From: Chromatiales bacterium
GTDB lineage: Bacteria > Pseudomonadota > Gammaproteobacteria > Thiohalomonadales > Thiohalomonadaceae
Direction of reading: 5' to 3'
Length of the DNA: 32,829 nt
NCBI GenBank assembly: GCA_030640985.1
Contig: DAOWII010000022.1
Span: forward strand, 1-32,829
Shown here in pieces: positions 28,317-32,829 of this stretch (the stretch's first letter is position 1; the number at the start of each line of letters is the position of its first letter). Below the pieces are notes generated by a model, which made no database searches, was not told where the DNA came from, and saw only the letters and a program-made list of their open reading frames with translations. A program made the position numbers and the translations under genes.

Positions 28317-29600
28317 TTACAAACTCGCCAATACCTTACCCGCCGCAGCGATGGTTTCATCCAGGTCAGCCTGAGTGTGAGCACTGGAGACGAAACCGGC
28401 CTCAAAGGAGGAAGGTGCCAGGTAGACCCCTTCATTGAGCATACCGTGGAAGAACAGGTTGAAACGGTCGGCATTGCAGAGGTTAACCACTTGGTCGAAG
28501 CTGTTGATTTTTTCTTCTTCGGTGAAGAACAGACCGAACATTCCACCGACGCGGTTGTTGGTCATGGGGATGCTTGCTTCGGCGGCCTTGGCCATGATGC
28601 CTTCCACCAGGTAGTCAACCTTCTTGCTCAAGTCTTCATAGAAACCGGGCTGGCTGATAATGTCCATGGTGGCTAGACCGGCGGCCATGGCTACCGGGTT
28701 GCCGGAGAGAGTACCCGCTTGATAGACAGGACCCAGAGGCGCGATAAACTCCATGATTTCCCGCTTGCCACCAAAGGCACCAACGGGCATGCCGCCACCG
28801 ACGACTTTGCCCAGGGTGGTCAGATCCGGTGTGATTCCGAGATGGCCCTGAGCACCGCCCAGGGAAACACGGAAGCCGGTCATCACTTCATCCAGAATCA
28901 GTACCGTGCCGTACTCATCACAGACTTCACGCAGCCCTTCGAGGAAACCGGGAACGGGTGGAATGCAGTTCATGTTGCCCGCAACGGGTTCGACGATGAT
29001 ACAGGCAACTTGTCCGCCTACATGACTGAAGGCTTCACGTACGGCATCGATATCGTTGTAGGTCAGGGTAATGGTGTGCTCGGCCAGGGCAGCAGGTACG
29101 CCCGGTGAATTGGGCACGCCCAGAGTCAGGGCGCCGGAGCCGGCTTTTACCAGCAGGGAATCGGAGTGGCCGTGATAGCAGCCCTCAAACTTAACGATTT
29201 TATCGCGGCCGGTGAAACCACGGGCCAGACGAATGGCGCTCATGGTGGCTTCGGTGCCGGAGCTGACCATACGCACCATGTCCATGGAGGGCACCAGCTC
29301 ACACAGGCGGTCGGCCATTTGGGTTTCCAGCACACAGGGCGCGCCAAAGCTCAGGCCATTGGCAGCGGTCTCCTGCACGGTCTTGATGACATCAGGGTGG
29401 GCGTGACCGGCAATCATTGGCCCCCAGGAGCCTACGTAATCGATGTAGCGGGTATCACTCTCGGACCAGGCATAGGCACCTTTGGCACGCTTGAAAAAGA
29501 CAGGTTCACCACCGACACCTTTAAAGGCGCGTACTGGCGAGTTAACGCCACCGGGGATATGTTGTTGGGCGGCTTCGAACAGTTCATGAGAATGAGGCAT
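28317..29600 (-). CDS. hemL: Glutamate-1-semialdehyde 2,1-aminomutase
   Basis: [72 protein letters not shown]. The ORF extends upstream but the family start is at 29600. Confidence 0.97.
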
Positions 29601-29650
29601 AGTCAGTTTTCCAGTCAGTATTGAATTAAACGTAAAAGAGTATTTATTCT

Positions 29651-29672
29651 TTGAGGTGGAACGCCACCTCAA
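29651..29672 (-). other. Perfect 9-bp hairpin in the thiE-hemL intergenic region
   Basis: TTGAGGTGG-AACG-CCACCTCAA inverted repeat. Confidence 0.6.
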
Positions 29673-29743
29673 CAAGGGGCTAATCCTACCAGAAATAGAC
29701 GCAGCTGTTCAGCAGGCTAAACCCGGTGAGTGAATCTATTGGC

Positions 29744-30436
29744 TCAAATCGCTTCTTGTTTACTATTGTGGGCATCGCAGTCCTGAGATGAAGGTGGATA
29801 CAGGTTACAGATTGATTCAGCGGCACCGCGAATATCTGTTTGGCCAAATACCCCGTGAATCACGGCCAGCAGATCGGCACCCGCCTCGACCAGGGGGGCT
29901 CCGTTGTCGCCGGTAATGCCGCCGATGGCGACGACGGGCAGCTGGAGTTCGGCGCGGGCTTCTCTTAACAAGGCAGGGTTTGCCTCCTCGGCCTTCGGTT
30001 TGGTGCTGGATGGGTAGAAGCGGCCAAAGGCCACATAGTCCGCACCCATGGCAGCAAAGTGTCGGGCTCGTTCCAGATCGTTGTAACAGGAGATGCCGAT
30101 AATGGTCTCGTTACCCAGCCGCTGGCGAGCCACTTTATAATCATCATCGTTTTTACCTAGATGAATACCATCGGCCTTGATCTCCATCGCCAGTTCGATG
30201 TCATCATTGATAATCAGTGGTACCTGAAATTGGCGGCATAACTCCAGCAATCGGCTAGCCTGTTGGAGGCGCAAGGAATGATTATCGCTCTTGTCCCGAT
30301 ATTGCACCATGCAGGCACCACCTTGCAGGGCCTGCATTACTGCCTGTGGTAATTGCTCGCCGGGGGTAAGCGACGGGTCGGTAATGACATAAAGGCCTTG
30401 TTTTAACTGCCTATTCACTTCGAGGTTCACCTTCAT
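29744..30436 (-). CDS. thiE: Thiamine-phosphate synthase
   Basis: GLYVITDPSLTPGEQLPQAVMQALQGGACMVQYRDK; IINDDIELAMEIKADGIHLGKND; VAIGGITGDNGAPLVEAGADLLAVIHGVFG. Confidence 0.95.
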   Translation of the reverse strand: MKVNLEVNRQLKQGLYVITDPSLTPGEQLPQAVMQALQGGACMVQYRDKSDNHSLRLQQASRLLELCRQFQVPLIINDDIELAMEIKADGIHLGKNDDDYKVARQRLGNETIIGISCYNDLERARHFAAMGADYVAFGRFYPSSTKPKAEEANPALLREARAELQLPVVAIGGITGDNGAPLVEAGADLLAVIHGVFGQTDIRGAAESICNLYPPSSQDCDAHNSKQEAI

Positions 30437-31241
30437 CTCTGGCCCAAAACAGACGACTGGGCTGGTGCTGCCCCATGCCTGTCCGGTAGCCATTCTTGAG
30501 TGCTTCCCAGGTGTATTCCTGGCCCTCATGAATGGCGGTAAAGGGTTCCAGCCCTTGAGCCATCAGACCAGCAATGGCCGAGGCCAGGGTGCAACCGGAG
30601 CCATGATAACTGTGGGGCAGACGCTCCCAGGAGAAGGTCTCCAGGCGGCGCATATTGCCGTACAAAGTATTATCCACAGTGTCGGTGTTTTCATGGGTGC
30701 CGGTAATCAATACAAATTCACAGCCATCGGACAGTATCTCCTGGGCACAGGCATCCAGGGTGTCCGCCTCAGGGGCCAGTTGTCGGGCTTCATTGCTGTT
30801 GGGTGTGAGTATGGTGGTATAAGGAAAGAGCAGCTCGATCATGGCGGCTTCCATCTCTTGATTCGCCAAGGTGGCACCGCCACCGGCACGCAGGATGGGA
30901 TCCAGCACCACCGGAATATCGGGGTAGTCGGAAAGAATAGTGTGGATTGACCCGATGACTTCTATGCTACCCAGCAGCCCGATCTTGATGGCATTGATGG
31001 GCATATCTTCCAGCACGGCCCGAGCCTGTTCAATCACCAGACCGGCTTCGACTGGCTCGACCCGCTTGACGTCCTGGCTGTCCTGCACCGTTAATGCGGT
31101 AATCACCGGTGCCGCCTGCCCCCCCATACTGGCGATGGCTTCAATATCCGCCTGGATGCCAGCCCCTCCAGTAGGGTCGTTACCGGCAAATACCAGGGTG
31201 ATGGGAATGTTTGCCGTTATGGCACTTTCCGTTTGTTCCAT
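30411..31241 (-). CDS. thiD: Hydroxymethylpyrimidine/phosphomethylpyrimidine kinase
   Basis: VFAGNDPTGGAGIQADIEAIASMGGQAAPVITALTVQDS; YHGSGCTLASAIAGLMAQG. Confidence 0.95.
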   Translation of the reverse strand: MEQTESAITANIPITLVFAGNDPTGGAGIQADIEAIASMGGQAAPVITALTVQDSQDVKRVEPVEAGLVIEQARAVLEDMPINAIKIGLLGSIEVIGSIHTILSDYPDIPVVLDPILRAGGGATLANQEMEAAMIELLFPYTTILTPNSNEARQLAPEADTLDACAQEILSDGCEFVLITGTHENTDTVDNTLYGNMRRLETFSWERLPHSYHGSGCTLASAIAGLMAQGLEPFTAIHEGQEYTWEALKNGYRTGMGQHQPSRLFWARDEGEPRSE

Positions 31242-31425
31242 GAAGTGAATGCTCTGCTGAGAGATAAGAAGCAGCAAAGTACCTGTATTTCAGGGAGGAC
31301 TCAAGGGTTTGTGGGTATGGCTACCTGCTGGGCAGTAAGGGCCTGCTCGGCGGAGGGTGCCGGCGGTGCACTCCGTTTACTGGAAAACGGAATTATAACT
31401 GCCTGCTGATGTGGGGTAACGTTAA

Positions 31426-31459
31426 CCTGAAACCGGTGGGTCAGCTCACCGGTTCCAGG
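31426..31459 (-). terminator. Strong hairpin just downstream of the cytochrome gene
   Basis: CCTGAAACCGGTG-GGTCAGCT-CACCGGTTCCAGG; about 13-bp stem with one mismatch/wobble, starting 11 bp after the stop codon; poor U tract on the minus strand. Confidence 0.45.
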
Positions 31460-31469
31460 CTTTTCTATC

Positions 31470-31967
31470 CTACAGTACGGGGCTATTGCTTGCCGGTGGC
31501 TTTTTCGGCAGCACAATAAAGGCATGGTCATTGGCTTCATGACAGGCCATGCACTGCTGGCGCATATGCTCAAAGGCTGCCCTGAACTGTGAGTGGTTTT
31601 TAGCCTCAATGGCGGGGCCAAACTGGCTGAAGGCCGATTCCATGAAAATTTTGGCCGTCTTTGCCCGTTTGGGACGGGTGATAATGAGGGTATTGATCAG
31701 GTCGTCCATCTCCTCCATCTGGTATTCGGCAAACTCCCATTTGCCTTTCTTGGCCGCCCAGTAGAGGTTCTTGTAGCGTTCGCCCATCTGCAGCATCACC
31801 ACCGAGGCTCCGGGGAGCACCTTGACCATGTTGTCAACCTTCTGCTCCTGGGTGGCGGTTTTGCGCCAGTCTTCATAGTCAGATGCCAAGGCTGCAGTGG
31901 ATATGCCACCCATGGCGATAAATATCAGGCAAGATTTTAGTAACCGCTGTGTAGTTTTCACTTTCAT
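31470..31967 (-). CDS. Periplasmic monoheme c-type cytochrome (C-terminal CMACH, cytochrome c'-like helical protein)
   Basis: Signal peptide (SCLIFIAMGGISTAALA); single CxxCH near the C-terminus (RQQCMACHEAND). Confidence 0.8.
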   Translation of the reverse strand: MKVKTTQRLLKSCLIFIAMGGISTAALASDYEDWRKTATQEQKVDNMVKVLPGASVVMLQMGERYKNLYWAAKKGKWEFAEYQMEEMDDLINTLIITRPKRAKTAKIFMESAFSQFGPAIEAKNHSQFRAAFEHMRQQCMACHEANDHAFIVLPKKPPASNSPVL

Positions 31968-31995
31968 GATTCCGTATTTTATTCAGTTAACGCGA

Positions 31996-32024
31996 ATGAT
32001 AGTTATTATCATTCGCGTTGTCAA
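31996..32024 (-). promoter_or_regulatory. Sigma70-like promoter with overlapping Fur-type operator, driving the cytochrome gene
   Basis: Minus strand TTGACA (32024..32019) - 17 bp - TATCAT (32001..31996). Overlapping TGATAGTTATTATCA (31997..32011), one base from TGATAATnATTATCA, inside a perfect 13-bp inverted repeat 31989..32001/32007..32019. Confidence 0.8.
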
Positions 32025-32132
32025 TACTGGAGTGTACCTCATTGAGGCACATTATTTTTATAAACCTTTACTTTTGTGGGTCTCTCTGCCATATTTTTGT
32101 AACAATTAGGGATTAATAAGGAACAATAGATA

Positions 32133-32829
32133 ATGGATATCCACGGGAACCTTCGTCTTACCTCTCTCACTCGCCCCTTGGCGGCGTTACTGTTTTCACT
32201 GTTAATGCTCTGCTCACTGCCGGGGCAGGCGGCCCCGATATTTCCTGGTGAGCTGTTCCTCGCAGGCACAAATCCTTACACCGTGGCCCTGGGGGATGTG
32301 GATGGGGATAACGCCCTGGATATGGTGGTGGCTAATGCCAACAGCCATAACGTCAGTGTGCTGCTGGGTGATGGTGCTGGAGGCTTTGCCGCGGCGGTCA
32401 ACTACGCTGTCGGCTCGGCTCCTTACTCCGTGGCCCTGGGGGATGTAAATGGGGATAACACCCTGGATATGGCGGTGGCTAATGCCAGCAGCCATAACGT
32501 CAGTGTGCTGCTGGGTGATGGTGCTGGAGGCTTTGTCGCGGCGGTCAATTACGCTGTCAGCTGGAATCCTCGCTCCGTGGCCCTGGGGGATGTGGATGGA
32601 GATAACGCCCTGGACATGGTGGTGGCTAATCACGACGGCCATAACGTCAGTGTGCTGCTGGGCGATGGTGCGGGGGGCTTTGCCGCGGCAGTCAATTACG
32701 CTGTCGGCACAAACCCTGTCTTTGTGACCCTGAGTGATGTGGATGGGGATAACGCCTTGGACATGGTGGTGGCTAATCGCGGTAGCCAGAACGTCGGTGT
32801 GCTGCTAGGCGATGGTGCGGGGGGCTTTG
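32133..32829 (+). CDS. FG-GAP/VCBS-type repeat secreted protein, N-terminal part (3' truncated by window)
   Basis: ATG at 32133, signal peptide (LAALLFSLLMLCSLPGQAA), then repeated VALGDVDGDNALDMVVAN...NVSVLLGDGAGGFAAAVNYAV; frame is open to the window end. Confidence 0.9.
   Translation, partial: MDIHGNLRLTSLTRPLAALLFSLLMLCSLPGQAAPIFPGELFLAGTNPYTVALGDVDGDNALDMVVANANSHNVSVLLGDGAGGFAAAVNYAVGSAPYSVALGDVNGDNTLDMAVANASSHNVSVLLGDGAGGFVAAVNYAVSWNPRSVALGDVDGDNALDMVVANHDGHNVSVLLGDGAGGFAAAVNYAVGTNPVFVTLSDVDGDNALDMVVANRGSQNVGVLLGDGAGGF
32265..32829 (+). repeat. 147-bp (49-aa) in-frame tandem repeat, about 3.8 copies visible
   Basis: Units start at 32265, 32412, 32559 and 32706 (exact 147-bp spacing); long identical blocks such as cataacgtcagtgtgctgctggg. 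Confidence 0.95.

Follow-up and report, generated by a model that had tools for sequence, protein, structure and literature searches.

The stretch of Chromatiales DNA that was analysed (the window, 32,829 nt) carries a Fur operator at the promoter of a gene for a small c-type cytochrome, and relatives of this cytochrome often belong to Fur-controlled gene sets that also encode a porin, a flavin protein and a membrane protein for electron transfer. Judged from sequence comparisons, the explanation that joins these two findings, i.e., a Fur operator on the window gene and a cytochrome family that functions in a Fur-controlled relay for iron assimilation, is on balance the probable one.

Fur operator and promoter

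The Fur box, AATGATAGTTATTATCATT, is at positions 31995–32013 (no strand assigned) and matches 17 of the 18 fixed positions in the 19 bp consensus used for scoring, AATGATAATNATTATCATT. The runner-up anywhere in the window scores 13. The 7-1-7 core, TGATAGT-T-ATTATCA (positions 31997–32011), is one base from consensus. An inverted repeat of 31 bp (positions 31989–32019, likewise unstranded) encloses the box and consists of perfect 13 bp arms (31989–32001 and 32007–32019, without mismatch) and a 5 bp centre. A simulated control, 1.5 Mb of sequence from an order-3 Markov model of the window, has a single site that scores 15 and none that scores 16 or more. This score and the inverted repeat together make chance an implausible explanation for the site.

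The cytochrome promoter is on the minus strand and displays the -35 hexamer TTGACA (32024–32019), a 17 bp spacer and the -10 hexamer TATCAT (32001–31996). It matches 11 of 12 hexamer positions and is the top of two promoter-like sites in a scan of positions 31270–32200. The Fur box covers the -10 hexamer and the spacer. The cytochrome ATG (position 31967) is 28 bp past TATCAT, and the minus-strand sequence up to it is TTGACAACGCGAATGATAATAACTATCATTCGCGTTAACTGAATAAAATACGGAATC-ATG. Direct reading of the sequence confirms the original prediction of a near-consensus Fur box inside a perfect 13 bp palindrome, over a TTGACA-17-TATCAT promoter that precedes a CxxCH cytochrome gene. Transcription that starts downstream of TATCAT would begin at the repeat's edge, which argues that the repeat is an operator and not a leader hairpin. 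Its sequence marks the site as a true Fur operator, and control of the window cytochrome gene by Fur is highly probable.

The genome assembly is 1.77 Mb and 79% complete, and it has two FUR-domain proteins. L001 is Fur by NCBIfam NF006999 (195.8 bits, cut-off 146), and the fur gene called for by the Fur reading is present. The second protein, L002, is nearest to Irr/PerR types but is below the cut-offs (IrrA, 123.7 bits vs 150). The 17 bp pattern has two exact matches in the assembly; the match outside the window falls within a coding gene. Fur-like sites of high score are scarce in the assembly. Allowing at most one mismatch, they are the window site, one intragenic site, one at contig C68 and one at C203. 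On C68, TTGACA and a palindromic Fur box precede a gene for an ABC transporter substrate-binding protein (Pfam SBP_bac), and the layout matches that of the window promoter. We take this substrate-binding protein to be of the Fe(III) type. A gene for an LbtU-family siderophore porin (C203; L012 1501, G000; 196 bits, cut-off 90) starts at a Fur-box-like site.

The cytochrome and its neighbours

The cytochrome is a small periplasmic c-type protein of 165 aa (positions 31470–31967, minus strand). It has a signal peptide-like N-terminus and a C-terminal haem site, CMACH, at residues 139–143 (C139, C142 and H143). The match to Pfam Cytochrom_C_2 (PF01322) is weak, at 20.1 bits and below the cut-off of 26.5, and sequence searches of NCBIfam and PDB gave no significant match. 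An alignment of 44 sequences shows P52, M58, R64, Y65, W70, W77, Y82, Q83 and E86 to be invariant together with the haem site. The AlphaFold model is a confident helical bundle (pLDDT 87.9). When this predicted structure is compared by Foldseek, the top PDB matches are cytochromes c', although these are weak (E 0.15, TM about 0.4–0.6). M58 lies where the first bundle helix begins, and the haem site is at that end of the bundle too; from this position M58 is a candidate for the sixth haem ligand, an arrangement that presumably resembles c556 and b562. The invariant Met suggests a six-coordinate, c556-like haem, and M58 would argue against a five-coordinate high-spin haem. The protein is probably a four-helix, low-spin periplasmic electron carrier. 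It shares the four-helix bundle and the CxxCH near the C-terminus with the cytochrome c'/c556 superfamily (PF01322), but it differs in falling under the Pfam cut-off and in the invariant Met of the first bundle helix.

The genes downstream of the cytochrome, named by reading of the sequence, are thiD (30411–31277), thiE (29744–30529) and hemL (28317–29675), all on the minus strand. This segment (28317–31277) is context and is outside the operator. A divergent gene for an FG-GAP repeat protein (32133–32828) runs off the contig end. The suggestion that the Fur box also controls this gene is not upheld. A plus-strand promoter was not found, the centre of the box is about 130 bp from the FG-GAP ATG, and FG-GAP genes are not recurrent neighbours of the cytochrome in relatives.

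Related loci

Relatives were obtained from a genome scan and consist of 37 loci. PepSY_TM is beside the cytochrome in 14 of the 37, usually with FMN_bind and Porin_O_P. Both FMN_bind and PepSY_TM accompany the cytochrome in 13 of 37 loci, and 11 of these 13 add a Porin_O_P-type porin. The usual orders of the cassette are porin-FMN-PepSY-cytochrome and cytochrome-porin-FMN-PepSY; in L066 the cassette is some 2 kb downstream and ApbE is just upstream. A flavinylation-type motif, GAT, is present in all 12 clustered FMN_bind proteins, and 11 of the 12 have DGI[ST]GAT. Reading of the sequences shows a TonB-receptor-like gene adjoining the cytochrome in L067 and L076, MauG-like and LbtU-like genes adjoining it in L053, and, in L049, a GMC-type dehydrogenase gene that spans bases -2999 to -12 relative to the cytochrome match. 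With such a dehydrogenase before the cytochrome, the family may also be able to serve other electron donors or act as a general carrier. In the library that was searched, no paper brings together all five elements of porin, FMN-binding protein, PepSY, cytochrome and iron.

Conservation of the palindrome, on which the original prediction turned, is found in relatives as an enrichment of Fur boxes. Boxes that score at least 14/18 are present in 16 of 32 cassette-type (cytochrome-unit) upstream regions vs 10 of 225 others (Fisher p 1.5e-10, a value that is indicative only because the loci are non-independent and a TonB cluster was assigned to the cassette type after inspection). Of the 10 boxes outside the cassette-type set, six belong to genes that either come first in a cytochrome unit or have their intergenic gap in common with one. 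A perfect 18/18 box is present in L058/L037. Both the Fur box and the cassette are lacking in roughly half of the relatives (Thiodiazotropha, Thiohalomonas and others), and the conservation of the box excludes most of this Thiohalomonas/Thiodiazotropha half. A tree places the window cytochrome in a set of 12 rows with support of 96/95; nine of the 12 are labelled as Fur-box or cassette, and L048 and L051 are nearest to the window protein.

In L051 and L056 as well, the cytochrome cassette is followed by thiD-thiE-hemL, and L048 has thiD-thiE. In L051 the porin-FMN-PepSY genes are between the cytochrome and thiD-thiE-hemL, and these genes are missing from the window. Neither PepSY_TM nor FMN_bind/ApbE is beside the cytochrome at the window locus, no PepSY_TM gene was found in the 79% complete assembly, and the FMN_bind matches in this assembly are Rnf/Nqr-type subunits by context. 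The simplest reading is that the partners were lost at the window locus and the regulated cytochrome was retained; possibly, cassette partners lie in the fifth of the genome that the assembly lacks. A search of the window for remains of the porin-FMN-PepSY cassette found none. In L048, a Fur-box-like site (14/18) precedes thiD, 1792 bases past the cytochrome match on its downstream side.

Thiohalomonas-type relatives, which belong to the same family, have a different operator. Their cytochrome gene is without a Fur box and has the palindrome TTTAGA-N5-TCTAAA (TTTAGAATNNNTCTAAAT), which we take to resemble the Irr ICE box. It is nearly the sole such site in each Thiohalomonas-type genome; the two others precede, in G014, an Irr/PerR-like gene and, in G016, the gene for a peroxiredoxin. 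A similar site precedes trxB in the genome of the window. The palindromes before the Irr/PerR-like regulator, peroxiredoxin, trxB and cytochrome genes represent a candidate small Irr/PerR-like regulon in gammaproteobacteria. Since the Thiohalomonas-type cytochromes form a separate supported clade in the tree, the different operator may mark another gene lineage and not a swap in place. Palindromes of the TTTAGA-N5-TCTAAA type are located at L092 1501–1518, L096 1501–1518 and near L086 1501, and at loci L065, L072, L080 and L004.

Proposed function and alternatives

c-type cytochromes are usually turned down at low iron. In Pseudomonas fluorescens Pf-5, for example, several are down when iron is short (PMC3377617). 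For a conserved haem protein, repression by Fur is the opposite choice, which points to a job worth its iron. The Fur operator, and the presence of relatives in Fur-controlled porin, flavin and membrane electron-transfer gene sets, imply that cells probably make the cytochrome deliberately at times of iron scarcity. With sufficient iron, Fe(II)-Fur would occupy the operator and block RNA polymerase, and the cytochrome would be produced only under iron starvation. Ferric complexes would enter via an outer-membrane porin or TonB receptor, and electrons would be carried outwards by the PepSY membrane protein and the ApbE-flavinylated FMN_bind protein. The cytochrome would join this electron relay, by which ferric iron or its chelates would be reduced. 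The gene neighbourhoods favour the role in iron reduction or acquisition that was originally raised; we infer the role itself, as well as the repression, the direction of electron flow, the substrate and any retention of this role by the solitary cytochrome. From the neighbourhoods, the case for a flavin-haem relay through which the family contributes to iron assimilation is evenly balanced, and the same role is less probable for the solitary window cytochrome. More tentative, and rather doubtful as a whole, is the proposal that porin, flavinylated FMN_bind, PepSY and c'-fold cytochrome constitute a new flavin-haem relay under Fur control, which would reduce iron for assimilation in several gammaproteobacterial lineages, with haem invested when iron is scarce and an Irr/PerR-like regulator replacing Fur in one genus.

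PepSY flavinylated clusters have been tied to iron assimilation and Fur repression, with DUF2271 and DUF4198 as common partners, in the portions available of Meheust et al. 2021 (PMC8238504). The relatives are similar to these clusters in having PepSY_TM and a flavinylated-type extracytosolic protein in an iron-regulated context, with ApbE in one locus and TonB receptors in some. They differ in having FMN_bind, a Porin_O_P-type porin and a small c-type cytochrome, and the window locus has the cytochrome alone. No description of a cytochrome partner was found in those portions of PMC8238504. VciB and FoxB, PepSY-type membrane proteins tied to iron reduction, represent the kind of membrane partner that is envisaged for the relay, but the available parts of the sources make no mention of a c'-fold cytochrome partner. 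The uncharacterised cytochrome family gains a testable function, which would add a haem component to the flavinylated PepSY iron systems.

The main alternative is that the cytochrome serves, under Fur control, as a carrier in stress or respiration (peroxide, NO or dehydrogenase electrons) and has no part in iron uptake, with low iron and oxidative stress merely having common regulators. This is unlikely, yet it has several observations in its favour: the TTTAGAATNNNTCTAAAT palindrome on the cytochrome gene of Thiohalomonas-type relatives, with the other sites before the Irr/PerR-like and peroxiredoxin genes and the trxB site in the genome of the window; MauG/peroxidase-like neighbours in L053 and L057; and the GMC dehydrogenase in L049. 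However, the window protein has its nearest relatives in the Fur/porin/FMN/PepSY group and not in the Irr/PerR-like one.

L002, as a second FUR-domain protein, or an unseen Zur or Mur might bind the window site in place of Fur, but this is quite improbable: the putative Irr/PerR-like operator is clearly unlike the TGATAAT type, and the window site comes close to the Fur consensus and has a layout in common with that of the iron-type transporter gene on C68. It is scarcely credible that the site is a chance palindrome, or a hairpin or terminator with no operator function. The perfect arms do extend past the 19 bp core and vary from site to site, as such an origin would allow, but the simulated sequence has no comparable site, boxes are enriched in relatives, and terminator prediction is negative at the window site.

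In several Fur boxes, self-complementarity extends into the flanks by a further 6–7 bases per side, with flank sequences that differ from site to site. These are the window repeat (31989–32019), a site near position 1189 of L011, and sites at -2763 in L047, -2724 in L057 and -2817 in L059 relative to the cytochrome match. Self-complementarity of at least 6/7 in the flanks is present in 5 of 20 Fur boxes vs 0.26% at nearby positions.
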